Positions 2,967-48,600 of a DNA stretch of 64,000 nt are shown piece by piece. Numbering within the stretch: position 1 is the stretch's first letter; each line of letters begins with the position of its first letter. The notes beneath the pieces were generated by a model, which ran no database searches, was not told where the DNA came from, and was given only the letters and a program-made list of their open reading frames with translations. A program made the translations under genes and the position numbers. The stretch lies in assembly GCF_000764305.2 (NCBI RefSeq), contig NW_025936006.1, positions 72,388 to 136,387 on the forward strand. The letters run 5' to 3'. Origin of the DNA: Hyalella azteca. Lineage: Eukaryota > Arthropoda > Malacostraca > Amphipoda > Hyalellidae.

Positions 2967-3404
2967 ACTGATCTAATTTTTTGTCATTACTTATACTTTC
3001 TTGAATTGTAGGAAAACTGTACAATTATGCTTCAGAATGAGTAAATAAAAAATTTTAAAGAAAATTTATCATTGATAATGTGTGGCACAAGCAATTCTTT
3101 TATTCGAGATAGAAGAATTGACGCATCGTAAATTTATTTACCAGCTTATCAATGGCAGGAGCCATTTTTCAAACAAATTCATTCAGTTAGCGGTGGCAGG
3201 GAGATCCTATCATCCCTGCTTTATTCATTTGATAATCCTAAGAGTATTTGGGAAACCTGGCCTAGGAAAAGAAATTCTGCAAGTCACTGCCCCCGACACG
3301 CCCTGGGCTGTAAGTTGATTAAAGAACGCCACACTAACTTGTATCTTGCACCTCACACCCTCCCCCTCCTACATCACTACCGCACCCTCCTGCATCAATT
3401 CTCA

Positions 3405-4050
3405 TCTACATCACAGGCACTCTCCTGTATCCCTCATCACAATCACTCCCCTGCATCACACATCACAGACACTCCCCTGCATCCCACACCACAGTCACTC
3501 CCCTGCATCCCACACCACAGTCACTCTCCTGTATCCCTCATCACAATCACTCCCCTGCATCACACATCACAGACACTCCCCTGCATCACACATCACAGAC
3601 ACTCCCCTGCATCCCACACCACAGTCACTCCCCTGCATCACACATCACAGACACTCTCCTGTATCCCTCATCACAATCACTCCCCTGCATCACACATCAC
3701 AGACACTCCCCTGCATCCCACACCAGTCACTCCCCTGCATCCCACACCACAGTCACTCCCCTGTATTCCTCATTACAGTCACTCCCCTGCATCACACATC
3801 ACAGACACTCCCCTGCATCCCACATCACAGACACTCCCCTGCATCCCACACCACAGACACTCCCCTGCATCACACATCACAGACACTCCCCTGCATCCCA
3901 CACCACAGACACTCCTCTGCATCACACACCACAGTCACTCCCCTGCATCCCACAACACAGACACTCCCCTGCATCACACACCACAGTCACTCCCCTGCAT
4001 CCCACACCACAGTCACTGCCCTGCATCACACACCACAGTCACTGCCCCAA
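3405..4050 (+). repeat. ~24-bp minisatellite (CATCACACATCACAGACACT)
   Basis: About 25 variants of CACTCCCCTGCATCxCAC. Open frames (HSPASHITDTPLH type) reflect the 24-bp period only. Confidence 0.93.
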
Positions 4051-5034
4051 TATTTCAGTCAATCATTAAAGTTAATGTCGGCAAAGTTCAAAGAAAAACT
4101 TCGCTCTAAAGTCGTTATTTCCAGCGTACCTTCGTTGAATATTCGGTTGCTTTTACGTGACGGTACAAACTTTGAATAAGTAATTTGAGTGCAGAAATAT
4201 TGGCGAGCAGCGAAGGGAATAAAATATGACAAAATATCTTTCACATAAAATAGCACCGAAACCATAAAAATAAGAATCTAATTTACAGAGAAAAATGAAT
4301 GCTGTTTTGAGTTTAAAAACTTCAAGATGGTAATTAAGCTAGCTTGGAATATTCTTTCAGTACAAAAAGCTTATTGAATTACGAGCAGAACGTCCAAAAA
4401 ACTTCAGTAGAGTAAAGGTACTAACACAATTTGGGAATTTTTACCTGGAGTTCTGGTGAAATTTTATATTCGCCTGCAGGTACTTTGAAAAGTTTCTGTG
4501 CAATTAACGTTAAATAAGGTTAAGGTTTACTCGTCTGCTCGCCTGCGCCGTGACAGTGCATGGCTATTATGAAGAGAAAATTTGTCACAGATTTTAGCCG
4601 TAATGAACGAGTTGAAAGTTTTACTCGAATTTTTTTCTTCAGTATTTCAGAAGAAATATGAAGTTAAAAGAGCCATGAAAAATTGGTAGCAATCGAAAGT
4701 GTCTAAATAAATATCATGTGGATCAAGGGGCAAAGCTCCATCTCGTGTGCTTGACAGAAGAACATCTCCTCGCAGAATTTCAGCGCATCTTGCAGGTTTT
4801 CGGTGTTGTGCTTTCAGGATCGGCGAGGAAGCAATCCCGTGAGGTGTCAAAAATTAATTAGAAGATAGATTGATAGGAAGATTGGCTGACACCGGTGAAC
4901 TTTGAAGGGACTTGCGCGTTCCTTAAAGAAATTCCAGAGTCTAAACTTAGGACTTGAGAGCAAACATCATCTAGACGTTTACCGCTCTCTGTATTTAATG
5001 TAGAAGAGTACAAGTATTGAAGTATTATTTGGCA
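4051..5034. other. Intergenic, nothing recognised
   Basis: Unique AT-rich sequence between arrays. Confidence 0.6.
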
Positions 5035-31785: not shown

Positions 31786-34754
31786 CTGTGGCCGTGCGAC
31801 GTGGAGATAGGACGCTGAAGTTTAATCGAAGTTCAGAAGGAATTACCGGACTGCATTTATCGGCAAGTTTGTGCGCCATTTCCTGCTTCAAGTTGAACGT
31901 GTGGGAACTTTTCCCAGTGCATCTCGATGCCATAAAGTTATTTAAACAAATTTTCAATACGCATTTGGTGAATATATCTTTGCCTCATTGGCATGTCGAA
32001 ATAATTTATAGATGATTGCTCCTGAAACTTAACCATTGTGTATTTGGTTGATCATAATTTTAGTCTGAAATTATGCGGCCAACCATATGACAAATAATAT
32101 GATACCATAAGATAACACTCTAGATACGTGGGATAAGTATAATACTCGTATGGCTCCGAATATTGCCTCAATTTGGAGTTTGACAATCAAACAGGTCGAG
32201 CGCCGACCATATCGTGCTGCAGGAGGCCGATTTATGCACTTTTTACAGGCCCAAAATCATGTGCTATGAAAAATTGCCTCAAGCTTCACCGAATATTTTT
32301 ATAATACATTATAGCTGTGGAAGCTTCAGGCTTTGTCCTCGGCAAGGAAATGCAATATCAGTGCGACATTGACAGCAAGGCGGTGTGGCTGGTAATTCAG
32401 GTACCACTTTTGTTTGAAGCCTGTACATTTGGCAAAACGTTCAAGTCTTGCATTTTCCCCTCATCCCCACCATGAATGCTTCCCTTTATTTCCTACCGTC
32501 CTAGCCAGCCTCCACCCCCAGAGACGCAGTTCGATCGAGCCTGTGTTCAATTTTTCAGGCGTCCCCAGCCTAACGCCCCGACCCTGAGCCTCCACCCCCC
32601 CGCCGCCACACTCGTGCCCCAGCTGAGAGAGCAGAGATGGCGAGATAGATTAGCGTTCTCAAAATTATTCAGAATTCGCTGAATAATTAGACCGGTCTTT
32701 CCCCGGATCGATAAAATAATCGCTGCTATTTTGGAATCCCGTTATTCAGAAAACCGTTAGGTAATAATAATACAACTCTTTGCTTATCCATAAAATAACG
32801 CGTTCAAATCCACATTTTACATGGGTTCTCGCTTTGAAATATGAGAAAAATTTCAGGTGTAGGTAATATTCCGCTTCGAAAACTACGCTGGATCCTCATA
32901 TATATCCGCTATATATTTGAGTAATAAGACTCAAAACACAAACACAATCTTCGATAAATATTATAAGATTAAGGCTTTTCGAAGAGCTGCCCCTGGATAA
33001 CCCTCGCCCCCCACTAGCACATCACTATAGTATGGATATATAACAAAATTTAGCGATGAAATTTATATCTAATCCAATCAGACGATTTTCATTAACCTAA
33101 TTACAAGATTTTGATTTTTAATTGAATTAAGTGACGAGTTTTGAAGGAGATAGCTATTCTACTTCTGTACAGTCCCAACTTCTCTTCGGTACTCTCTACT
33201 CTTGAGGGACTACTCTCTGTCTCTATGTTCATGCTTTACAAACCTCCGTCATGTAGGTTCAGATCATGTTGAAAAGCAGAGTTTTCAGATAATGTTGATA
33301 TTATCTGTACAAAAGCGGTGCACACTTGTAGTTCTTAACAGTATGGAACTTTAACAAGGAATGAATCGACCGCAGAAGTACACACAATCTTAAGTCCGGA
33401 AAACTCTAAACTAACAACGGAAAAATTGCTATTACACGATTTAAATCTATACTATTCCCTAATACCATGCTCCCTATAACCCAGCAAATCGACATGGTCC
33501 CGCTCTCTTCAGTGCTCCCCACGCTCCTTATAACGCCGTACAGCGATGTCCGTAGAAAAATTTAGATGCGGGTTGGACTCTGAAATGCCGCCAAGGACTC
33601 GGAGAGCAACCAAATCAGCCGCTGTGTGTTTGAAGACCAGCAGCTGTGGGCAGCTTGCAAGCTCCGTATGACTAAATTCGGCCAACACAACTCAAACTCT
33701 CAGGCAACTATAAAGTCGGAAAGGAGATCTGGCCAGAAAACAATTTCGATCGAGTGGCAAAGCAGACCGATAATAATTTATAGCCGAGTGTGGCGACTCC
33801 TGGTCAAAAGCCTGCGTAGACAGTACACAAGCTATGTCAAGGGAGGTCCTCATTTTCTTCAGTACTTTTCTACATCTGAGCTCAGCACAGCTTCAAGACT
33901 CCCCTCTCCCCTACTCGAATTCCAGTACTCCTTTCTGCCAAGGCGCAGCAAAGGCCTGGTAATTTAAGGCTCGTAAAGAGTGCTGGCAGTGGGGCAGGAA
34001 GCGGGCTAGAGATGGGCTAGCTGGCTCTCGCTTCCTGTCTGCCAGTGAGCCTTCCTCGCCGCTACTGTCTCTGCAACGCTCACGTCTGCACACTTTTATT
34101 CCACACCGAACTCTTCCTCGATAATAATTCTCGGCGCTGCTTTCATGCTCAAAAATATACTTCCGGAGGTCAAGCAATGCAAAAGGTTCAGGAAAAGCCT
34201 TTGCCTTTCTTGCGCTCAAACTTTTACCAGTTTCACTCTTCCGAGTCTCATGTCGAAGATCAGGGCCGAGGTCGTTCCAATTTTTCGCCTATAAGGTATC
34301 AACTCGTTTTCAGGCGAAATTTCTATTACTTTGGATTCCCCAATTATTTGTCTGATCACTATCATACCAACTATCTTTTCACTTTGAGATTAATAATGAA
34401 GTAATCTGAAATCTGACGCTGGCGATATTGCCGCCACAATACCTCAAACAACTTCGTTTGCAGTGAGTAATTTGTAACATTCCCGGTAAATAAATAGAAC
34501 ATCGTCCTACGTGATGGTTGTTATAGGCTGCTGGCTTGTAATCAGCTGTAAAATAATCTCAAAAAGAATGATCAGTTTTCATTGACCTCATTGTGCGATC
34601 GTTTGACTCAACTGTAGAATCTTGGTGATGTGAATGCTTCAGTTTTAATTAACTGTGGTTAAGCCTGACGTTCCAACAGTTATCCTACTATTGGAGCATA
34701 AGATTGAACAGCATGAGTCTTGATAAACATCCTGATGGATCATTATAAATCTAG
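31786..34754. other. Intergenic, nothing recognised
   Basis: A C-rich patch at 32450-32640 and frames near 33.6-34.4 kb show no domain. Confidence 0.55.
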
Positions 34755-34985
34755 CGTAATGAATCTAGCATGGCGCGTGCCACGATCACAAGTTCGGCAC
34801 GCACGACACACGAATTCGTGCGTGGCACGATATCGAGTTCGGAACGCACGGCGTTTGAAATCATACGTGAAGCGTGCCGCGATCAGGTGTTTAACACGCA
34901 CGACACACGAACTCGTGCAATACACGTGGTGAGATCACGTGTTTTGCACGCACGTAACACGAATTTGTTCTTCGTGGTGCACGCT
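34755..34985 (+). repeat. ~46-bp palindrome-rich repeat
   Basis: CACGCACGACACACGAATTC-type units with the palindrome CACGAATTCGTG; about five diverged copies. Confidence 0.8.
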
Positions 34986-35064
34986 GCATTTCAGTAGATC
35001 AGCGGCAGTCTTCGCTCATCGATCCGCTGATGATTGTCAAGATGCTCTTCGCCATTCATATCCC

Positions 35065-35270
35065 GTCCACTTGGTGGCTGCCAGTGGCTCAGTGGATTAC
35101 CGCTGACTGCCACTTGATGGCTACCAGTGGCTCAGTGAATTGCTGCTAAATGCCACTTAATGGCTGTCAGTGGCTCAGTGAATTACTGGTGACTGCCACT
35201 TAATAACTGCCAGTGGCTCAGTGGATTACCGCTGGCTACCACCTGATGGCTGCCAGGGGCTCAGCGGAGT
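35065..35270 (+). repeat. 43-bp minisatellite
   Basis: GCTGCCAGTGGCTCAGTGGA plus 23 further bases, about five copies. Confidence 0.88.
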
Positions 35271-35734
35271 AATTCTTGAAAATCCGTACCAAGCCGTGAG
35301 ATCTAAACTTGAATCGACTCCGGCCTTTATTGTTCGTAGCAACGTATGTAGCTATTAAGATTCGATTGGAAAACGTAACTTAAAAAATTAATTGTAACTT
35401 CAAGAGCTTTATTAATGGAATATGCATCGGAGGAATGGCAGAAATGTTAAGCCGATGAAGGATAGCCGCGCCATCACCTGCTCTTTGGTTATCAATTAAC
35501 AATCACGGGCGATGTAGCAGAGGCGCCTCAAAGTTTGACTTGGTCAGAACTCTCGGCCATTTGTGAGTGCACTCAAATAAATTAGCGAGACTTGTCCAAA
35601 TATCGATCCTCTTTTTGCCCTTGCGTGTGTCCTCTGATACAATTTGACCTGTCCAATAATCAGTGCTTCGCCTGCTCTCTGTACTTGTGCTCTGAGGGAA
35701 TAAAACGTATCCATACATGTTTTCAATATGAAGT

Positions 35735-35835
35735 GCAATATTCATGCAATATTACAATACAATATTACAATACAATATATGCAATATATATATTGTATAT
35801 AATACAATATATACAATATATATGCAATATTCCTT
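35735..35835 (+). repeat. AT-rich AATATTACAATACAATATAT tract
   Basis: Alternating TATA/ATAC low-complexity sequence. Confidence 0.8.
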
Positions 35836-37318
35836 GTGCGGCTTTGGATTTTTACAGACCAATTTTTACAGATCAGATCGTAATTGTTATGGCGCCTTAG
35901 CGTTCTCTTTGGAAACTATCCAAAAGGAGTCTATATTGCAAGTCGATGCTTCCGCTTGTTTATCCCGTTCTGTTTTAGGATTGTTTTTCCAGGGCTTGCC
36001 GAGACCACTTCTCGTTTTATAAGGCATAAATGATCGTATAAAACTGAGTTATAGGAGTCTGATGGTTCCGAATCCTTGAGAGGCAAGGCGTATACACGGA
36101 TATTACTGCCCGATTGCTATTTCTAATCATTGCTTTTCCATTTATATATGAGTGCAGAAAAGTGAAAGGCAACGACAATGTATAGGGAGAAACTCATGAC
36201 TTGAATCGTAAGTAAAAAAGAGTGTAAGAGGGCGATTTTTCAAAAGATGAGAATGAATCGAACTTATAATTAAAAATAAAAATTATTTATGTGAGTGCCT
36301 TGCATTTCAGGTGAAGGGATAAGAAAATTACGTACGAATTAATGTGTATATTTTTTATTGTAAACAACAAAGTTAAGACATACCTCACGTTTCAACAATT
36401 ACAACATTTCTGGCATAGGTAGACTTTGTTCATGTTATGCCTATGTCCAAAAATACAGAACAAAGGAAACATTTAAACTATTATTCACATTGAAACGCTT
36501 CCTAGGATTATATTTACATTTACTATAAGATTTGTACACACTCGAGCCTACAGGTTCATGGAAGAAGGTACAGATGCGACGCTAGGCTTTACAAGGACTA
36601 CAGACACTCAGAGCAATGTGTGTGACACTGTCCCTAATAGCGACGCACCTATTTGCAGGACCAGTTTGGTTCAGCATAACGGCATGTCGGTACTTTTGTA
36701 TGTCACTATTTTATAAAAGATGTGTATCGCTATTCGGACAATACGACCTATTCATTTTTCTGAGAGCACACCCACTTTTGATGCTCCTCAGGAAGTCTTT
36801 TGGACAGTGAAAAAAAAAACAGATTGAAAATTAATATACGTGATCTTCAAATTAGTTTTGGAATGATTAAAGGACTAATTTGGATTGTTCGAAAGTTTAG
36901 GACCATATATACCACTGAGTCTCACTTCAACGAAAGAAAGATCCGCATTCCGCGAGTTGAGTTTCTCACCCGCCTCCTCAACTAAACATTTAGTCGGTTA
37001 GGTGCGAAGTCATGTTGGCTTGACGGAGGATAAGTCGGTTTTGTCACCTGATAAACATTTGTGTGGCTGCAAAGGCAGCGGAAAATTTCAGGGGCAAAAT
37101 ATTTTTGTCCGTAAGCATGATCTTGAAATGTTTTTTTTATCAAATATTACTTCCGTTTTTGTATCGATTAATTGTATGATGCAAGTAACAAGATTCAGAT
37201 GACATTAACTTATTTGAGGGTATAAGCCAATCCTCACATGTTGGTCAAAGTGTTTAGGTTTTACGTATAATTACGTTGGGTCCATAGATTACAGAAAGAA
37301 GTGAGGAAATTTTATCTT

Positions 37319-37349
37319 ATCTGTATTAAGGATTTCCCTTAATACAGAT
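37319..37349. other. Perfect 13-bp inverted repeat with 5-nt loop
   Basis: ATCTGTATTAAGG, loop ATTTC, then CCTTAATACAGAT. It lies downstream of the receptor gene, in its possible 3' UTR or beyond. No known element is recognised. Confidence 0.8.
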
Positions 37350-37617
37350 GATTATTATTAGAAAGTAACTTACTTTCAACAAGACATAATCATAACGAGT
37401 GGATACATAAAACTCTACGCCCATATTCATTTCAAGACTCTCATGGCACTTCATTATTTTTTACGCCTGAAAATTCCACTTCCGGTGCATCAGGGGCTGA
37501 ATTACTTGATAACTTGACATTCGAAATTATTTCCTAAGTGCACAAGTTCCACAATTAGTGGTCAGGAGTGCAGTAGAGATGGCGTCCAGACTGGGTGTCC
37601 TCGATCGTTGAAGAATA

Positions 37618-37623
37618 TTTATT
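37618..37623 (-). terminator. Candidate polyadenylation signal AATAAA
   Basis: The plus strand TTTATT is AATAAA on the transcript strand, ~450 nt past the TAG at 38070. Another AATAAA lies at 36354-36359. In this AT-rich DNA such hexamers occur by chance. Confidence 0.35.
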
Positions 37624-38069
37624 TTCCGTTGCGATTCGGTCACTTATTTGCCTTCCAGGCGATTATTAAAAACTATTTTTTCCACGTGGTCATTGATCTT
37701 GACAATTCATCTACTGATCTGCTGCATTGCGTGAATTGAATAGACTACGAATATTACCTGAATTATTTTAATTCCTTTACTTTGCTTTCATTCGTAATGA
37801 TTTACATTCATATCGGCTAAGTTTCTTGAAAACAACAAATCTGCGAAAACAATTTTTCCAAAACTGGATAGATGAAGCTGTCAATATACTCGTGTGAGTA
37901 GCATATATTTAAAGCAACCGAACGCTTGAGTTTTCTGGTATTTCCTCGACTTTCGATGGGGTGGCAGTACGGATGAGGTGGTCTTTCTTATGCTGTTTTT
38001 CGTCTTTCTTATGTGGTCATTCTTATGTTGTTATCGATATGGTAGCTCAGTAGTTGGAAGGGGAGTGAT

Positions 38070-39203
38070 CTATCGCCAACTCATGAGGAAGTGGGGAGGG
38101 GAGTTGGGGGAAGAGCTTGGCTGGGAATCCGAAGAAGTGGAAGAAGTGGGAGGAGAAAGAGCTGGTGAACTAGGAGGGGAATCTGGAGGGGTTGTAGGTG
38201 AAGATGACAGCGGTGAAATGGGTAAACTGGCGGGGGGTAGTGGCGGTGGAAGGGGTGGAGAAGGTGGGTCAGGTGGGGATGACTTGTTTTCTGGTGCGGT
38301 GGATTTGGCGCTTCCGTTGCTAAGAGGAAATGGAGGAGCAGCTGTTGGTGGAGGCGGGGCCGTGTGTGCTGGAGGAATTAAAGTAGGCTCGGGTGATATT
38401 TTATCATTAAGTTCCTTGAATGATTTTTCGATCTCTGATAACATCGATCCTTTCGGAAGAAGAGATTTTTGATTCTTGGCAAGCGTCGACGTAGGCGAAA
38501 AAGGGTACAGGGGAGACGTGACTGAGCTGAAACTAGACCCACAGTCCTGACTTGCCGACGACTGCACCGCTGGCTGAGCATACTGTGAACGGTGAGTCTT
38601 CCTATTAAGCGTCGAAGTACTGGGGATCGCGTTGGGAATAGCGTATGGGGACGTGGCTGGGGGTTTTGGAGGCACAGGGGGCTTAACACATGAGTTTATT
38701 TTGTGTTTCAGGTGGTCCGTGCTTGGGACTGGAGGAGGAGGAGGGAGTGGCCACATTTCTTCATCCTCCAGATCATCTTCAGCAAGACTAATATCGTTCT
38801 TCAAGTCAGTGTGACGTTCAAGAGTAGAGGCTTTGCTCAACTCTTTTAATCCAAGTGAGTTCATAGAAGTCGCATCTTCTTTGGAGGTATCGCTGTGCCA
38901 GGGATCCGTAAATGGGTTCTTGAGTCCGTCGAACAGGTACGGAGGAGGGCTAAATTTGCCAGATGTAATCTGAACTGGTGAATCTAGTTCGTCCTTATCC
39001 TGAGTATCAGGAGTCTGACGATGGATGCCATTGACATGAAGCGTTGGAGGGCTTCTGGCCCCATTCGCCAAACGAGCAGCTGGTAAGTTGAATTCGTTGG
39101 TGGAAGATGAGTCTTCAGTTCTCCAGCCATTTGTTGCGTTGGTTATGCGATTGATGAAACTTGTCATCCCCGCAGGCAATGGAAGCCTACGGGGAACGTA
39201 TCG
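38070..39203 (-). CDS. Putative readthrough extension: 377-codon Pro/Ser-rich cytoplasmic tail
   Basis: Directly after the TGA at 39204-39206 the same frame runs on without a stop for 377 codons to TAG at 38070-38072. The predicted peptide is not a generic repeat. It carries PPPY (WW-domain ligand of Nedd4-type ubiquitin ligases) at tail residues 86-89, NPF (EH-domain ligand) at 96-98, DPW (AP-2 alpha-ear type motif) at 100-102, LPPPPP (EVH1/profilin-type) at about 153-158, PPVPPKPP (class II SH3 ligand) at 175-182, a short charged helix (LSEIEKSFKELNDKIS), and a Pro/Ser-rich end. These are features of cytoplasmic tails, so the segment is probably translated as part of this receptor. Routes could be UGA readthrough, selenocysteine insertion, an unseen intron that skips the stop, or a sequencing error at the stop. 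A separate gene is less likely, since no good start or promoter precedes it; the first ATG is at 39167. Confidence 0.65.
   Translation of the reverse strand, partial: RYVPRRLPLPAGMTSFINRITNATNGWRTEDSSSTNEFNLPAARLANGARSPPTLHVNGIHRQTPDTQDKDELDSPVQITSGKFSPPPYLFDGLKNPFTDPWHSDTSKEDATSMNSLGLKELSKASTLERHTDLKNDISLAEDDLEDEEMWPLPPPPPVPSTDHLKHKINSCVKPPVPPKPPATSPYAIPNAIPSTSTLNRKTHRSQYAQPAVQSSASQDCGSSFSSVTSPLYPFSPTSTLAKNQKSLLPKGSMLSEIEKSFKELNDKISPEPTLIPPAHTAPPPPTAAPPFPLSNGSAKSTAPENKSSPPDPPSPPLPPPLPPASLPISPLSSSPTTPPDSPPSSPALSPPTSSTSSDSQPSSSPNSPPHFLMSWR
38658..38747 (-). other. Polyproline EVH1/SH3-type ligands in the extension
   Basis: The sequence reads LPPPPPVP at 38724-38747 and PPVPPKPP at 38658-38681. 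The first resembles Ena/VASP EVH1 or profilin ligands; the second fits PxxPxK, a class II SH3 ligand. Confidence 0.5.
38898..38918 (-). other. Endocytic motif pair NPF-T-DPW in the extension
   Basis: Codes for NPFTDPW. NPF binds EH domains (Eps15 family) and DPW/DPF binds the AP-2 alpha appendage. Their adjacency is typical of clathrin-adaptor ligands. The motifs are short, so chance occurrence is possible. Confidence 0.5.
38937..38948 (-). other. PPPY WW-domain ligand in the extension
   Basis: The PPxY motif recruits Nedd4-family HECT ubiquitin ligases to membrane proteins. It lies about 20 nt upstream, on the transcript, of the NPF-DPW codons, giving a compact down-regulation cassette. Confidence 0.5.
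39167..39195 (-). promoter_or_regulatory. Stem-loop 8 nt after the stop, candidate readthrough stimulator
   Basis: On the transcript strand, TCCCCGTAGG (39195-39186) can pair with CCTGCGGGGA (39176-39167) around a 9-nt loop CTTCCATTG. The stem has ten pairs: nine Watson-Crick and one G-U. The spacer CGATACGT is 8 nt. Stable hairpins a few nucleotides past the stop stimulate readthrough in viral and Drosophila genes and selenocysteine insertion in others. I paired it by eye and computed no energies. Confidence 0.6.
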
Positions 39204-39206
39204 TCA
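39204..39206 (-). promoter_or_regulatory. Leaky-context UGA stop (UGA-C)
   Basis: The codons around it are ACA GTC TGA CGA TAC. UGA followed by C is the four-base stop context most associated with readthrough in insects. The frame beyond remains open for 377 codons. That this stop is suppressed in vivo is inference. Confidence 0.6.
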
Positions 39207-41878
39207 GACTGTCGTTTCGAAATTTACATCAATACAGTGAGGGAAATGGCACTCAGGAGGTTCTTGTTGGTTTTCTTGATGCCCAGGGGCAAGAACCTCT
39301 TCCCCTGATATTGAAAGAGGAGTTTTCTTCTGTCTCTTCCACAGATCATTCGCATACCAGCTTACAACTACAGTTAAGGAACCAAAAAGAATGCCAAAGA
39401 ATAACCAAAACCAAGGAGAAAGAGCCATTAGGCATGTGCCGACCGATTCATCAGAGCCGGTAGGACAGTGCCACGTTCCATCACAGAAAAGCGATGCGCT
39501 GATGCACGCATGCACTTCCGGACATTCAGTCGCACATCTCTCGGCCAACCATCGCGGCGCTGCTTGAACGTACCTTATATTGATTGTATCACTGTAATGA
39601 TGCGCCGAATAATGGCTTGGTCGAGTAACCATAACGACAATAAGAGATCTTTGATTCTGGTCCAGGTAGTCTAGAGACCATGGATCACGAAATCCCCTGG
39701 AGAAAACTTGCACAGTCTCAGACGATGACGGATCTACACACACAGCACTTAGCGGACGAGGAGTGCCCGGCTGGTAGGCATGTAGTTCGGGCCCGGAACA
39801 TGCAGAAAGTGGGAAATTGTTGCTTGAAAACATCGTGTGAGTATCTTCCACTAACTGGAGTCCTCCTTGGATAACTCTCCCTGGTACAGATATCATCAGA
39901 AAGCGATCCTTCTTCGGTCTAATTAACCACGGATGTCCTCTGCAGGGACCCGACGGTGGTTTCATAGGTAGTGTGAGGTAGCCTGATTCCCCCTGAACAA
40001 TGCGTTTCTCCTCACATTCAGCAACTTCAACAAACTCATATTCAAGCTCAAAAGAAAAGTGAGAGAAATCATCAAAAACGTTCATACCGACGACCGTAAA
40101 ATTGATAGCTATGTTAGAAGTGAATGACATTAGAGCGGCTGGCAAGCTGCTGCCATGACATAAGCATGCCAGTGGCAATTCAATCTCTTTCCATGGATAT
40201 TCGGAGACCTCCAGTCGGGATCCCCGGCCTTCTAAACGATGAGGTCGTCCGCAGGCCTGCAGAGGCGACTCTCCTCCGTGACACGTCGAATTATGCGCTG
40301 TAAATGAAATGAATGTCACTCGCACTGCTTCGTTGGGCTTGCCTCGAAGTCGGTATTTACATTGCAGAGAAGTTTCTCCAAACTTGCCGTACAGTAAATT
40401 ATTTGCTGGTGACTGAATCATCCCTTTCTTACTTCGTTCACTTGTGATCAGTTTGTCGCATGGATGCTGAATATTCAAAGCCTCAGCTTTAGGTCCAGAG
40501 TAAACAAATTCATAATGCAGCCGGAATTCGAGATTGGCGACAGCTGACGGTAGAAGGTAATGGATCGTGAGGGTCGCTTTTGGACCTTGCGTGAGGTAAC
40601 TCTCGCTCTCTCCGCACGGCCGAGTTCGGTTTCTGCCTGGCCCCAGTTGCTCACGATGACACACGCGGACTCCCATATGGCCACAAGAGCTTTCTAAGGG
40701 TTCTTCGGCCCCTTCCTCGGAAAGTGTAATTCTTGTGCGACAGTGCGGTGCGTCACGAGACTTTGGTTGGTTGTATGTTGATTTTAATCGTGTGAAATGT
40801 AGCCAAATGACTTCATCAGAGCGACCAATGAATTCATAAATGCACTTGGAGTCGCTGGGCAGAGAATGAGCAACATTTTCAAAAAAGCCTTTGGCTGCCT
40901 CAAAACTTGAAATAGTGAACATGCATTTGTCCTCAGCGTACAAGTACGAGTTTTTTGGAACGAAAGCTACTCCCACATCGAGTTCAAAGCCGGGGTGGGT
41001 GCCAGGTGACGGGTCGAAGTACATATTGTCGAACGCTGAAGTCTGGAAGACTAAGAGCAGCTCTGCACCACTTGAAGTGACCCGTGGAACGATGCCTCCT
41101 CCGCAAAATCGCAGTAATAGACGTCGCTTTTCGCCTGAAATTTCGTAGATGTTGAGCGTGTCTCCAACAACATCGCACTCTGAGTCTAGCCTCAACTGAA
41201 GTGTTTTGTCGCACTCTGCAGCGTCTGTATGGCGGATATGCACGTGCCCGTTATTAGGTTGGCCCACGCTGACGAGGGCGTGGCGACCGTAGGGCACTGT
41301 GGCCTGTCTAATGATGTACTGACACGTGATGTTTCGTGGGTACATGCCGGGATAATTAGGTGATTGGATGCGACATTTTCTCCTATCACAAGAATCGAAT
41401 ATTTTGTCGCAAATTGAGTTAGGGCGCGCAAAACCCAAGTATTTTGCACTGTCCCAAGTGCCATAGCGTACGACAGCTTTAGCTTCTAACAGAAACTTGT
41501 ATAAAACACGGGTTCTGAAGTCCTTATCTACGGTCATGAGGCTGCTACTTTTCTCTGGAACATGGATCGTAACGCTAACTGTGTTTGTTTCGCTATAGTA
41601 AACGTTATGTAAATTGCTGCCACCACACCAGTATCCTTCGATATGTGGGCGCATGGCTTCGTCCACCGTTATGGATCCTCCAGGACATCCGAAGACGTGA
41701 TGGGACCTGAAGGTGCCGAGAGTCACGTCCCTGAACACCAGCTGTACGAGTTCTCCGTAAATGTCACCAGCTGCCACAAATGTCAGATGACAGGTAAAGG
41801 GCAGCTTGGCAGAAGCTGACAAGCGCAGGTCTAGCTCATAGCTCTTGCCAACCTCTCCGTAGTATGTCACGTTGCAAG
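39204..41878 (-). CDS. Main coding exon of CUB/LDLa transmembrane receptor, ending at UGA
   Basis: One long exon with 890 codons plus two bases completing the codon split with the upstream exon (C+CT = Pro, then Cys-Asn-Val). Domain order: CUB-like 1, CUB 2 with the classic IQSPNYPGMYPRNITC start, CUB-like 3, 4 and 5, a six-cysteine LDLa, a transmembrane helix (WFWLFFGILFGSLTVVVSWY), a basic stop-transfer (KRQKK) and a ~49-residue cytoplasmic tail ending ETTV. With the upstream exon the product is 1182 residues (or 966 from the internal ATG). The architecture is that of Neto / LEV-10-type auxiliary proteins, which bind and cluster ionotropic receptors at synapses. That function is inferred from architecture, not from a sequence match I could run. 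The exon begins after TTTTCCTTGCAG. The terminal TGA at 39204-39206 is followed by an open frame, described separately. Confidence 0.9.
39207..39218 (-). other. C-terminal class I PDZ ligand (ETTV)
   Basis: The last four residues before UGA are E-T-T-V, which fits S/T-x-V-COOH. Known PDZ scaffolds such as PSD-95/Dlg bind such ends only when they are the free carboxyl terminus, so readthrough would abolish it. Confidence 0.75.
39357..39428 (-). other. Transmembrane helix
   Basis: About 24 hydrophobic residues (ALSPWFWLFFGILFGSLTVV and onward) followed by NDLWKRQKK, a positively charged stop-transfer. This places the CUB and LDLa modules outside and the C-terminus in the cytoplasm. Confidence 0.92.
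39432..39536 (-). other. LDLa module 2 (juxtamembrane)
   Basis: Six cysteines in a ~35-residue span (C-ATE-C-PEVHA-C-ISASLF-C-DGTWH-C-PTGSDESVGT-C) with the DGxxHCxxGSDE calcium-cage signature of LDL-receptor class A repeats, immediately before the membrane helix. This placement is the same as in Neto proteins. Confidence 0.9.
39561..40016 (-). other. CUB-like domain 5 (divergent)
   Basis: Begins CEEKRIVQGESGYLTLP, followed by GPCRGHPWLIRPKKDRFLMISV and the strand TINIRYVQA before the LDLa module. Cysteine spacing departs from the family, so the call rests mainly on position and strand pattern. Confidence 0.5.
40029..40460 (-). other. CUB-like domain 4
   Basis: Begins CDKLITSERSKKGMIQSPAN, which matches the IxSP start of CUB domains, continues SLQCKYRLRG, and ends FSFELEYEFVEVAE. 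NST and NFT sequons suggest glycosylation of an extracellular domain. Confidence 0.7.
40503..40925 (-). other. CUB-like domain 3
   Basis: Begins CMFTISSFEAAKGFF, then SKCIYEFIG as the second-cysteine strand, a cysteine-bearing insertion, and the terminal strand NLEFRLHYEFVYSG, typical of the last CUB beta strand. There is one NRT sequon (Asn-X-Thr). Confidence 0.6.
40959..41411 (-). other. CUB domain 2
   Basis: The most canonical CUB of the protein. CRIQSPNYPGMYPRNITCQY gives the first cysteine pair and SPNYP signature; GDTLNIYE and LLLRFCGGG supply the D-x-L-x-I-Y and R-F-C-G-G motifs; it ends GFELDVGVAF. A longer insertion precedes the GDTLNIYE strand. Confidence 0.85.
41466..41878 (-). 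other. CUB-like domain 1
   Basis: The exon starts with PCNVTYYGEVGKSYELDL. It contains paired cysteines (TCHLTF and GCPGG, then WCGG) and a C-terminal strand (VLYKFLLEAKAVVRYG). The spacing is CUB-like but divergent. Confidence 0.5.
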
Positions 41879-42215
41879 CTGCAAGGAAAAAATGCAGGCA
41901 TTACAATACTAAGTGAAGGTTACGTTAGGTTATATTAGGTTAAGATTATGCCCATTGCTGCAAGCTGCATAGACAAAAGTAGGCTTTACTTAGTGGAGCT
42001 AAGGCTAGAATAGGCTAGGTTAAGTTGAGATTATGACCATTGCTGCAAGCCGTATAGACAACTGTAGGCTTTACTTAATGAATCCTGGGTTAGGTTAGGC
42101 TAGGTCAAGTTAAGATTATGATCATTGTTGCAAGCTGCATAGACATAGGTAAGCTTTATCTGGTAGAGGCTAAGTTAGGTTAGGTCAGGATGAATTAAGA
42201 TTATATCAATCATGA
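41870..42215 (-). repeat. 85-bp tandem array seeded from the intron acceptor/exon edge
   Basis: TGCAAGCTGC recurs at about 41873, 41959, 42044 (variant) and 42129, with spacing of 85-86 bp. On the transcript strand each unit reads like a 3' splice site (TTTTGTCTATGCAG then CTTGCAGC), matching the true acceptor. Units also contain TTAGG-like stretches. Confidence 0.85.
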
Positions 42216-43437
42216 TCTAAAAATTTTTCTGTCAACAGAGGTTTTTTCGAAGAAATATAATTAATGTTTACCGCAAATATGTCAATTTTCTGGGTTGCCA
42301 TCATATGATCTGAAGTTCAAGAGACAAGAGAGACAAATAAAAATATTTTCACCGACTGAAAACCTTTGAGGATTTTATTACAATAATATTACTTGTTTGT
42401 GAAATATATTATTTATTCGATTTCGAATTAACGTAGCAATGCTCGAACTTTTCTTGCTTAGAAAACAGTTAATTCAGATATGGACTAGAAATTCGTCACA
42501 CACGAGAGAAAAATGAGGAAAATGAAGCCATTTTAACTAACATGGACAACATTCTGATCAGCTGACGACTCTAAGACAGTGTTTCTAAAATTTTTGTGAT
42601 TGAATACGCTTGGAGGTCATGTACCACTGATACGTCATCAGCGCACCACCAGGTTTCTGCTGAGTACCACTAATACTTACAACAATAATACTAATACCCT
42701 GCTGTGACTGTTAATACACTGTTCGAAAAAAAGGCGGGAAAACATTGACAACTGCGTTTTAATGGCCGGCCGGCCCGTGAAAGTCGGTCATGATGGTTCC
42801 AGTTTCATACGTTACCTTCTAAATGTACAGCAACATTGTTTTTTTTCCAGTTTGGAAACCGCTGGTCTGTGAGATTGGGACTTTTTGGTGACTCACGCCA
42901 GTTGAGAAACTGCTGGTCTGTGAGACTGAGACTTTGTGGTGACTCACGCCAGTTGAGAAACTGCTGGCCTGTGAGACTGAGACTAACGCCTGTTTAGAAA
43001 CTGCTAGTCTGTGAGACTGAGACTTTGTGTTGACTCACGCCTGTTTAGAAACTGCTGGTCTGTGAGACTGAGACTTTGTGGTGACTCACGCCAGTTGAGA
43101 AACTGCTGGACTGTGAGACTGAGACTTTGTGGTGACTCACGCCTGTTTAGAAACTGCTGGTCTGTGAGATTGAGACTTTGTGTTGACTCACGCCTGTTTA
43201 GAAACTGCTGGTCTTTGAGACTGAGACTTTGTGGTGACTCACGCCAGTTGAGAAACTGCTGGTCTGTGAGACTGAGACTTTGGGTTGACTCACGCCTGTT
43301 TAGAAACTGCTGGTCTGTGAGACTGAGACTTTGTGTTGACTCACGCCTGTTTAGAAACTGCTGGACTGTGAGACTGAGACTTTGTGGTGACTCACGCCAG
43401 TTTAGAAACCGCAGGTTTAGAAAGTAAAGTTACTCAC
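41879..43437 (-). other. Intron joining the two receptor exons (1559 bp)
   Basis: The donor reads CACGTGAGTAA with exon end at 43438, and the acceptor reads TTTTCCTTGCAG with exon start at 41878. Both are strong, and the phase (1 nt + 2 nt) restores one reading frame that links LDLa 1 to CUB 1. The intron is bordered on both sides by tandem arrays (separate entries). Between about 42200 and 42850 is AT-rich DNA without recognised features. Confidence 0.88.
42870..43420 (+). repeat. 51-bp minisatellite at the donor end of the receptor intron
   Basis: About ten units of GAGACTGAGACTTTGTGGTG plus 31 further bases. Because 51 is a multiple of 3 the plus strand stays open, but the peptide (RLRLCGDSRLFRNCWSV type) is a by-product. 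On the transcript strand each unit contains GGCGTGAGTCA, a near copy of the real donor CACGTGAGTAA. Confidence 0.92.
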
Positions 43438-44311
43438 GTGTGCAGCCGGGACGCTCGTCTGACTGATCACCACAATCGTCTTCGCCGTTGCAAACCTTGT
43501 CCCGCGGGACGCACTGCAGATTATCGCAAGTGTGCTCGCTCACGGGGCAGGGACTTGCACTGCCCACTCCTCCGCCACTCCTGTGACTCGTCAGGGGACT
43601 GTCAGGCCCCTCGGTGGCAGCCTCATCCAGTCCCCATATCAAGAAAATTAGCATGAGGCTCATGAATGCATTGAAGAAACCCGTCCTGGCACGAGCAGAC
43701 GTACGTAACCGAATGGAAGTTTTCCCGTTGAGCTGCGAGCGTGTGCGATGCGCAGAGTTTAGCGAAACTATCCCCGGGGAACTTTGATTAGAAGCTCTTA
43801 ATCTAAATAATACACTATCTTCCTGTATATTACACCCCCATATTCGTGCAAACATTTGCCTTGTATTCATTGTATTAAATGACCAGCTTCTCGTTCTGTA
43901 CGTATGCATCCGCTGTGCTTCTGCCTGCTCGTCGCTCCGTCTTCTCGTCTCGTCGCAAAGTTTGGTTCGCTCGACGAATTCTTGTGTAAAGTTCGTGCCG
44001 CATGCCGACCTCGACACGACAGTCTTGCTGTCGCTGCTGCATTGTAGCCTGAACGCTGCCCTGACAAGGTGTCGGCATGTCGGGTGATTGGTTGGTAAAG
44101 ACGAACTGGTCGTCACGGTTTGGTCTTCTATCAGTGTACATCGAGTTACTTTTGCAGGGAAACCGCAAGTTGAAGTTTTAAATACGTTGGTGAAGTCGTG
44201 CTGCTTTGGATGAGAAAATTTTCTTCCTGAATTCTGAACCGATTGGGATGAATCTTCGCCTGAGCATGACTGCGGGGCTGTGGATGTGCTTCTTGGCTGC
44301 TTCTGTACCAT
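43438..44311 (-). CDS. First visible coding exon of CUB/LDLa receptor (N-terminus, signal/anchor segment, LDLa 1)
   Basis: This exon encodes the N-terminal part of the receptor. From ATG at 44311 (G at -3 and +4, a strong start context, with an in-frame TGA 6 nt upstream) there are 291 complete codons plus one base. The first ~215 residues are polar and unlike any domain I know. A hydrophobic run (FFNAFMSLMLIFLIWGL) then follows a basic stretch, and a six-cysteine LDLa module (about 43442-43549, ending DDCGDQSDERPGC) closes the exon. The hydrophobic run could be a signal peptide if translation starts at the internal ATG at 43663, whose context is weaker (T at -3). If the first ATG is used, it could be a type II signal anchor. 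The long stop-free leader argues that the upstream part is translated. The exon ends ACA-C at GTGAGT (phase 1), which fits the next exon exactly. The acceptor at 44328 shows that further 5' exons exist. Confidence 0.75.
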
Positions 44312-45477: not shown

Positions 45478-45515
45478 CTGTCTCTTATACACATCTAGAT
45501 GTGTATAAGAGACAG
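45478..45515. other. Nextera mate-pair junction adapter (assembly artefact)
   Basis: CTGTCTCTTATACACATCT is followed immediately by its reverse complement AGATGTGTATAAGAGACAG. This is the Tn5 mosaic end in both orientations, exactly as in the Nextera mate-pair circularisation junction. It separates two different minisatellites, so they may not be neighbours in the genome. Confidence 0.97.
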
Positions 45516-45855
45516 AGTCTCAACAATCGCACTAGTCTCAACAATCGCACTACTCTCAACAATCGCGCTAATCCCAACAATCGCACTAGTCTCAACAATT
45601 GCACTAGTCTCAACAATCGCACTAATCTCAACAATCGCACTAGTCTCAACAATCGCACTAGTCTCAACAATCGCACTAGTCTCAACAATGGCACTAGTCT
45701 CAACAATGGCACTAGTCTCAACCGTCGCACTAATCTCAACAATTGCACTAGTCTCAACAATCGCACTAGTCTCAACAATCGCGCTAGTCTCAACAATCGC
45801 ACTAATCTCAACAATGGCGCTAGTCTCAACAATCGCACTAGTCTTAACAGAATTT
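45516..45855 (+). repeat. 18-bp minisatellite (AGTCTCAACAATCGCACT)
   Basis: About 19 units starting at the adapter edge. Both strands are open because the unit is six codons. Confidence 0.95.
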
Positions 45856-48600
45856 ACAGCTTTCATTGAATTAATGACCACCTTAAAAGTTACGTGAATC
45901 TCGCCCCCGTATTGAGGGCCGGCCGCCGAAGTTTGGAGCCTAAAACTGGTCTTTGGAGTATAGCCGTGGCTTAGAGCGAAAAAGTAACAAAAATGCTGAA
46001 ATGGTTGATTCAGATTATTTAATTTTAATCCATGTAATTGAGAGGCTTGAAAATTAAAGAATTTCCGATGTATTTGAATCGGAATCAGTTTCAGGTATCG
46101 GGTCGCCGTTTCCTAGGCTGGGACGGCAGGGTCTCCTGCTGCTCGGAAGTGAGCACTTGAGCCGGGGAGAGGGAGGGACTCGCTTCCGTTCCTAGATGGA
46201 TCTGCAGGAGTGAATCCTATTGGCAAGCCGATACACATTGCGTCGTCCGATAGCCTTTCTATTTAAGAGAAAAACTTCCTTGGCCAAGTCGCATTGAACG
46301 TAGACTCATTTTTCCAATTGAATGGGGCTATGGTGATCTGGAACCCTCATTATTCTGCGTCTGAGATTTCGTTTCACGAAAACAACAACATTCGATTGCT
46401 TGAAGTTTTTTTAAATTGAATGGTTAGTTTTTATTTTGGAGCTCATTTTTTTTTCATGAGTTCCTGGTAATTTGCGAATAAACATCTTTTTAAATCTGTC
46501 TGCATTCATAAACGTTTCTTTATATTGCAAGACGGATTATTATTACCTGTCTCGGAAACTTTGGTTTGCCATCGGCTCCCGAAATCTGGCTCACCGGACT
46601 CCCAGCTGTGTCCACGTATTATTCATAATTCGTCCATTTGCTACAAAATTGTTCATCATTTCCATAGTGCGGCCGTTCATCACCCACAGTCGAGCATTTG
46701 TGTTCATGAGAACACGAGTCTGGCGTCATGTAAGATCACTCATCTGTATTCATGGACGCGCGCTTTACGAGACTCGCGTCTCTACCCTCGCTCGCTCATC
46801 CCAGTGATCGAGGCGCTCGTATCTCTGATACGGCCACCACTTAGCTATAACAAGGCTTATCATAAGAAAAATCTGTACCTTCATCTCTATTAAAAGGGCA
46901 TTTAATTAGCGTTGTTAAAATTATAATATTAAAAAGAACCTAGTTCATGTAGAGCGCCAGTAAAATAATATTTCTAGTGTTTTTTTTTGCAGAAATATCT
47001 GCTATGTACAGAATTGTCAAATGTATAGTCGGGGTTTATTCAAGATCAATAGATCCAATTTATTTTCATCATTATAACTCTTCAATTTAACGACCTCGTT
47101 ATAGGTTTCAGTAATAGTATTTAGACCTGATTTCTGAAGCAGAAATGTCAACCTCCATAACATGTGGCTGTTTAATTTCATTTTTAACGGCGCAGATCCC
47201 AAAGCTCATTCCAGCAACCTGATAACATAAACAGAACGGAAGTTGGCAGAATATGAATGCAGTCTTTATGGAGGGCGTAAAGGTTTTACGAGGGTGTTTC
47301 AGTGTAGGTACCGAGGGCACTAGTCCTGAGGGGACGCCGAGGTGAACGTACGTAACATTTTCTCCTTCATGGCCGCAGTTCTTTCAAATTTGTCTCGCTT
47401 CATAACTGGAAAAGTTCTACCGCAGAGTACCGTGAGGTATCATGGTACAGTTAATATGTGCCTGCGCCAAACTCGATTTTGTGGAATTTTTAATTAAGGA
47501 ATTGGACAAATATCATGGCTACGTTTTCTGTTAATCATTATTGAGCTAATTGTGGCATCGTTGGTATTTAAAATTATTGAGTATTAGTAAGGGATTATAC
47601 AGTATGCAGGGAGGTGACAGATATAATGTTTCATTTTTAACTATCGAGCTTGACTAGAATTTAGTCAACACAATAACCTTTTTTCGAACACTTTTCCATG
47701 AAAGTCTTGATGATAAGTGCGTCGAGAAAGACGAATATCACTCTCACATTAAAATTGTTCATAGATTTCACTTTAAAGTTTAAAAATTTCAAATCTTGCG
47801 AATCCCAAGGAACGATTGCTAATAACCCTGCAATGAGTCAATAACCACCTCGTTCAACTCATTTTATATTAATAAAATAACTAATTCTTTAAATAATTGT
47901 TAATATTTTTAAATTGGTATCGTCGTTATTCATGGTCCGGGTCCGCCGGTGGGGGTGGAGTGACGGGGGTGGGGGGTGCCTCATTAAAAGAAGGGAGCGC
48001 CGCCCCCCGGAGTTACATCATCAGCGACAGAAAACTTGTGGAAGTATCGCGTGAGGAATGGTAGGCTGGCCCAACTTTTGTTGTCCGTGCCATAAACACT
48101 TCCTATATTAGGAAGTTTTGAATTTGCCCGCTATTATGTAGACTTCATATTATCTAATTTTTGTTTGAGGCTGGCAAAGTTATTGCAGCCAAGTATGAGG
48201 AGTTTTTTTAATCATGGCTCTTTGAAATTTGACGAGAGTTCATGTCGCTTAAGAATTCACTGAAGATGAGTTATAATTTTTAAGCTGTTTTAAAATACTT
48301 CAGAATATCTTAACAAAGGCATTAAGTATGACAGGATAAAGTTATGCGTATAAAGAGAGCGAAGAAATTTATATTTTTATATTAGCTCTAAATTCTCAGT
48401 ACCGAGCATATTGTTTTCTAGAGAAGAATTTTTAAATTTAGATTCAACAACATCACACATTTTTCATCTAATCACATTTGAAATTTCATTCCAAACTAAC
48501 ATGCAACTCAAATTTCTTCATCAAAATTGCTGACGATAGCGATTTAGATGACGGTAATTAGTCTTCAGAATTAATACCGAGGTGTATAACTGTTTAAAAA
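45856..48600. other. Intergenic, nothing recognised
   Basis: The frame at 46525-46893 has no domain. Linkage to the receptor gene is uncertain because of the adapter. Confidence 0.55.
47930..48025 (+). other. G-rich then C-rich island
   Basis: GGTCCGGGTCCGCCGGTGGG followed by several GGGGG runs and CGCCGCCCCCCGGAG; potential quadruplex. No gene is attached. Confidence 0.5.

Follow-up and report, generated by a model that had tools for sequence, protein, structure and literature searches.

We predict that a receptor gene in the window (the whole 64-kb stretch of DNA analysed here) is subject to programmed readthrough of its UGA stop codon, which would replace an end resembling a PDZ ligand with a proline-rich, adaptor-like tail. 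Judged from sequence, programmed readthrough is the best explanation of this locus, with a probability of roughly 0.86. The first-pass annotation had already proposed readthrough of a UGA-C stop in this gene, and that proposal is now supported by the conservation of both the stop position and the tail, by a predicted hairpin 8 nt from the stop, and by the weakness of the candidate splice sites.

Most ribosomes would stop at the UGA-C and release a receptor of 966 aa with the PDZ-type ligand ETTV at its end. Some would instead decode the UGA via a near-cognate tRNA, aided by the C on its 3′ side and an 11-bp hairpin that begins after an 8-nt spacer, and would go on for 377 codons. The long form would be 1,344 aa, with ETTV buried within the chain, and its tail would bring PPxY, NPF, and SH3-ligand-like motifs. 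A single mRNA may thereby give rise to a PDZ-anchored form and an adaptor-coupled form. That readthrough occurs at some rate, that both forms come from one unspliced mRNA, and which partners either C-terminus may bind are points that we infer.

The receptor gene and the position of its stop

The gene is encoded on the minus strand, a point left unstated in the first-pass annotation. Coding exon 1 (43438..43663, −), located by tblastn of the homologues P0002, P0004, and P0006 against the window, contains the start ATG (43663) and an N-terminal LDLa; the corresponding stretch is a Pfam Ldl_recept_a match in P0002 and P0006. A 1,559-nt GT...AG intron of phase 1 (41879..43437, −), the only one found between coding exons, separates it from coding exon 2 (39204..41878, −). 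Based on Pfam, alignment with eight homologues, and translation, exon 2 encodes CUB domains, DUF7805, a second LDLa, a transmembrane helix, the cytoplasmic end, and the TGA; the receptor frame in this exon spans 41900..39204 (−), with 898 codons ending at TGA.

The joined exons translate into an LDLa/CUB/DUF7805 receptor of 966 aa that ends ...CIDVNFETTV. Pfam identifies three CUB stretches and DUF7805 in the window receptor, and the juxtamembrane (second) LDLa is below the Pfam cut-off (20.5 vs 24.1 bits); in P0002, Ldl_recept_a is above the cut-off in two stretches. A sequence search against solved structures gave seven matches: Cubilin (query residues 171-365) and six in the LDLa region, these being LDL receptor, enteropeptidase, and TMPRSS2. 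The transmembrane segment WFWLFFGILFGSLTVVVSW (39357..39413, −) has the top 19-residue hydropathy. It is supported by a helix at 821-850 in a low-confidence model of an 891-aa receptor (mean pLDDT 54.9), which is predicted to be mostly beta plus the membrane helix. The cytoplasmic end of the short form comprises 49 aa and terminates in ETTV (39207..39218, −), which resembles a class I PDZ ligand.

The candidate leaky stop, UGA (39204..39206, −), is followed by C at 39203 in the codon CGA, giving a UGA-C context at 39206-39203. The Pro/Ser-rich readthrough tail (P 18.8%, S 16.2%) occupies the next 377 codons (38073..39203, −) and ends at a second stop, UAG (38070..38072, −). A receptor frame that ends at TGA then C and reopens for 377 codons to TAG had been described before, and we confirm it as read on the minus strand. 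The interval flagged at the time, 38070-39218, spans exactly the two stops, the tail between them, and the codons for ETTV. Receptor and tail adjoin in the genomic sequence, in frame directly behind the UGA, and searches of the 519-Mb genome with DNA and with the tail protein each located one such locus.

Minisatellites are abundant in the window, with 61 TRF rows scoring at least 80, some of them overlapping. One of these (51 nt × 11.4, 42847-43416) occupies about one third of the receptor gene intron. Another (26 nt × 24.7, 3408-4048) lies within an open frame of 325 codons (3132-4109) for which Pfam gives no match. A 205-codon open frame (45498-46112, −) that covers an 18-nt tandem repeat (45516-45849) has a Pfam match (E 6e-7) to DUF963, a repeat family of fission yeast; this is probably a low-complexity resemblance.

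We searched for receptor homologues among 4,107 candidates with a 1,269-residue query in which the UGA was read through, so a fused match was possible. Eight proteins were found, seven at 61-86% identity and one copepod protein at 26%. Matches with a named source are from Homarus americanus (P0002) and Meganyctiphanes norvegica (P0006), and the prefix TCALIF in the name of the copepod protein (P0008) presumably denotes Tigriopus californicus. In the alignment of the eight, seven end in [FY]ETTV, with the last four residues identical. The copepod protein lacks ETTV and has a different end, with an NPF within its own cytoplasmic part. None of the eight is a fused receptor and tail. Because seven of them stop at ETTV and none is fused, the position of the stop is, as judged from these homologues, old and common at least to lobster and krill. 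The records from Homarus and Meganyctiphanes end at ETTV, and the long form is therefore absent from at least these two records; no source with both receptor and tail was seen among the receptor and tail homologues. Median pairwise identity is 67% for the receptor (28 pairs, copepod excluded) and 51% for its short cytoplasmic end.

A dying gene, whose once-fused receptor had recently acquired the UGA as a nonsense mutation, would also look like a long open frame past a stop. We give this next to no credence: the stop residue is shared by seven of the eight homologues, none of which is fused, and the tail is still open and conserved. A recent mutation is contradicted by the common end of the seven proteins, and this candidate was rejected.

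The tail as conserved coding sequence

Six proteins were found when the tail was the query. One is the record of the window itself, which is called from Met13; the remaining five are called as separate ORFs (P0010-P0014, E 1e-90 to 5e-68 against the window tail). Relative to the window tail, these five show 58-62% identity over the alignment and 54-61% by local BLAST, and they can be aligned with it from codon 9, 13, or 40 through its final residue. When the tail alignment was used as a profile and scored against the 7,985 candidates with the most shared words, the same six proteins came back.

Median pairwise identity across the tail is 62% (15 pairs) and is unevenly distributed: 83% in codons 41-130, 58% in codons 131-200, 38% in codons 201-320, and 80% in codons 321-377. 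The most conserved block (codons 41-130; 38814..39083, −) includes STLER. The C-terminal block (codons 321-377; 38073..38243, −) ends SSSPNSPPHFLMSWR in the window, and all six tails end alike, in SPNSPPH[FY]L[LM]xWR. Five of the six tails contain PPPY (38937..38948, −), and five contain NPF (38910..38918, −). PPVPPKPP (38658..38681, −) is exact in three tails and present as variants in the other three. These motifs resemble ligands of WW, EH, and SH3 domains, respectively. The tail is 35% Pro+Ser, has no Pfam match, and is probably disordered.

An AATAAA hexamer lies inside the tail at 38700 (−), and polyadenylation there would truncate the tail; the tail homologues differ in protein sequence at this site. 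A 180-codon open frame on the opposite strand (37930-38472, +) is partly antisense to the Pro/Ser-rich tail end and is probably a by-product of codon composition.

The receptor and tail frames are the two longest stop-free runs of the window, and when the tail is read in the other forward frames, 11 and 21 stops appear. In first-order Markov simulations with the composition of the tail itself, none of 20,000 sequences was open for 377 codons (mean 11.9 stops), so the Pro/Ser-rich composition fails to explain the open tail. Codon-usage scores do not single out the frame (8.3 for frame 0, 20.1 and 21.9 for two antisense frames). The first-pass annotation had concluded that the open run is not due to chance, and this stands, carried by the homologues and the simulations; the estimate of (61/64)^377 on which it relied is the wrong test. 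A chance open frame was thus rejected on two grounds, the simulations and the conserved tail homologues, and the decisive evidence against it comes from the homologues of receptor and tail.

On the basis of these homologue comparisons, we regard the stop position as old and the tail as conserved protein-coding sequence. We infer how widely the tail is distributed among taxa, as well as the continued association of stop and tail in evolution; their in-frame linkage was observed in one genome, the window's own.

The tail could instead be a product in its own right: a free cytosolic Pro-rich protein whose translation starts at an AUG within the tail (codon 13, 39167-39165), the template being an alternative or bicistronic transcript. 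The calling of tail ORFs as individual proteins fits this, as does the presence of Met13 in all four tails that reach codon 13 (window and P0010-P0012), where in P0011 and P0012 it is merely the first residue of the predicted ORF. However, the calls for P0013 and P0014 begin at a Met further along, at tail codon 40, and P0010 retains Pro-Ala-Gly ahead of Met13. An independent gene would have no reason to lie in frame just past a conserved UGA-C that is accompanied by a hairpin of the readthrough type, and reinitiation after 966 codons is inefficient, which also counts against a separate tail product. We consider such a product very unlikely.

A predicted hairpin 3′ of the UGA

Programmed readthrough would have a candidate signal in a hairpin that was absent from the earlier description of the locus. 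It has an uninterrupted 11-bp stem (one G-U pair) and a 7-nt loop, for a total of 29 nt. A spacer of 8 nt (39196..39203, −) separates the UGA from the 11-nt 5′ arm (39185..39195, −), and the hairpin starts at the ninth nucleotide past the stop. The 11-nt 3′ arm (39167..39177, −) codes for Pro-Ala-Gly ahead of Met13. The same three residues precede Met13 in P0010, which hints that the 3′ arm may be conserved.

The 41 nt from the UGA onward have a predicted minimum free energy of −23.4 kcal/mol (z −5.0), and none of 200 shuffles was equally stable. The z score is −4.75 for a 60-nt fold and −2.3 for a 150-nt fold, which forms the same hairpin, and pair probability in the hairpin is 0.59-1.0 in a 260-nt context. 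Equally stable 40-nt folds occur at 47 among 127,920 positions on both strands of the window. At the same offset, one occurs behind a single TGA triplet out of 2,736, this UGA alone, or behind four of 7,238 when all three stop triplets are considered. Synonymous recoding of the first 16 codons gave an equally stable fold in 1 of 5,000 cases with uniform codon choice and in 0 of 5,000 with usage-weighted choice; the stem is therefore not a by-product of the amino acids. We suggest that the hairpin is likely a cis-element of readthrough.

At 29 nt, the hairpin is shorter than the 35-nt minimum of a stem-loop screen in Drosophila, in which 1,012 genes are reported to qualify, 34 overlapping conserved downstream ORFs and 21 overlapping ribosome-profiling cases (PMC13170385). 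With that many fly genes qualifying and so few overlaps, the hairpin alone proves little. Several stem-loop candidates are also reported to lack strong readthrough in yeast (PMC5100048).

The UGA might be bypassed in other ways, by RNA editing (A-to-I, giving UGG, tryptophan) or by selenocysteine insertion, either of which yields the long protein. The UGA is near double-stranded RNA and is itself paired in the 60-nt fold, but it is unpaired in the 41-, 150-, and 260-nt folds. An Rfam scan to E 5 found no SECIS family match in 34000-42000, and selenocysteine was rejected on this result. A bypass of either kind is extremely improbable.

Alternative splicing could also connect receptor and tail, if a minor isoform lost the UGA as part of an in-frame intron, so that the tail was spliced onto the membrane-proximal region. 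There is a precedent in Drosophila, where two Neto intracellular domains are reported to arise by alternative splicing (PMC9083331), and one in-frame candidate intron (39357-39187, 171 nt) can be drawn in this gene. The donor and acceptor of this candidate score 2.2 and 2.9 versus 3.45 and 8.7 for the real intron, on crude matrices. No donor scoring above 3 was found within 300 nt upstream of the stop, where 3.45 is the score of the gene's real donor. The candidate intron would delete the entire ETTV-bearing end and would leave a hairpin at readthrough spacing unexplained, and none of the eight receptor homologues is a fused splice isoform. We regard splicing as quite unlikely.

The features of a readthrough gene found here are the UGA-C context, a first stop whose position is conserved in seven of eight homologues, and a second ORF under protein-level constraint. 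A search for orthologous DNA across the stop gave no match in the viral and bacterial/archaeal collections.

Comparison with known systems

Abundant readthrough is established in flies and mosquitoes, and for crustaceans there is a statistical estimate from one species tested (PMC5100048). Titles and abstract openings of the literature matches listed mention readthrough neither for this receptor nor for any decapod gene; insect orthologues could stand in candidate lists. The candidate described here is a case of a known phenomenon, programmed readthrough, and an unusually long and conserved one. It would provide a specific crustacean example that can be put to the test, with a compact cis-element and an extension unusual in both length and conservation.

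The locus resembles the readthrough genes of Drosophila and Anopheles (Jungreis et al. 2016, PMC5100048) in its UGA-C stop, long first ORF, conserved first stop, and predicted RNA structure. According to that study, a predicted RNA structure occurs within 100 nt in 9-10% of insect readthrough candidates, and insect readthrough regions diverge faster than first ORFs, with more than half of them thought to be under 10 codons (PMC5100048). In contrast, the 377 codons of the tail approach the receptor in conservation (62% vs 67%, from different homologue sets), and the core block of the tail surpasses it (83%). The tail is exceptional in length and conservation relative to this insect catalogue. 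Fly extensions are described as often disordered, rich in short motifs, without Pfam domains, and at times several hundred residues long (PMC4999894). The tail fits this description, having no Pfam match, 35% Pro+Ser, and the motifs PPPY, NPF, and PPVPPKPP.

In the Drosophila gene dfr, a stem-loop from +9 to +59 raises readthrough, and its deletion or a 3-nt shift lowers it (PMC13170385). A stable stem-loop from +9 after the stop is common to both genes. They differ in that dfr encodes a POU/Oct transcription factor and has a longer, experimentally tested stem-loop, whereas ours is a receptor gene with a predicted hairpin.

Structured readthrough signals are covered in a review that we take to be by Firth and Brierley. 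The review places the start of readthrough structures around 8 nt 3′ of the stop, and gives the type II motif as UGA then CGG or CUA, plus a stem-loop (PMC3542737). As in viral type II signals, the stop here is UGA and a stem-loop starts about 8 nt 3′ of it. The following triplet is CGA (UGA-CGA) in place of CGG or CUA, and the gene is cellular; because of this triplet, the signal is type II-like only, not type II.

The readthrough extension of AQP4 is short. The C-terminus of AQP4 is a PDZ ligand (SSV), and anchoring is reported to require the readthrough isoform, AQP4ex (PMC6444679). Our receptor is likewise a membrane protein with a PDZ-ligand-type C-terminus, putatively lengthened by readthrough; it is unrelated to AQP4, and its extension has 377 codons and adaptor-type motifs.

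LEV-10, Neto, and SOL are type I membrane proteins that have CUB domains and mostly LDLa domains as well, and the mammalian CUB/LDLa protein NETO1 ends in a class I PDZ motif (PMC9083331). Compared by architecture only, our receptor is like this family in being single-pass with LDLa and several CUB domains. It differs in having two LDLa domains and DUF7805, and in that its two C-termini are proposed to arise by readthrough, not splicing. Of other CUB/LDLa proteins, CULD is required for endocytic trafficking (PMC4732287), and overexpressed Loaf is found in endosomal vesicles (PMC8205486).

By analogy with the PDZ end of NETO1, the two Neto intracellular domains, and the anchoring role of AQP4 readthrough, the most likely consequence of readthrough would be a changed anchoring or trafficking partner. 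The suggested logic is that one stop codon decides whether the receptor exposes its PDZ ligand or carries an adaptor-like tail. We propose tentatively, and with somewhat more doubt than confidence, that in malacostracans an ancient hairpin-assisted UGA readthrough switches the anchoring of a receptor that shares its architecture with synaptic receptor-clustering proteins, the PDZ ligand being either exposed or buried and followed by a 377-residue adaptor tail. If true, recoding does here what alternative splicing does for the Neto intracellular domains in flies.
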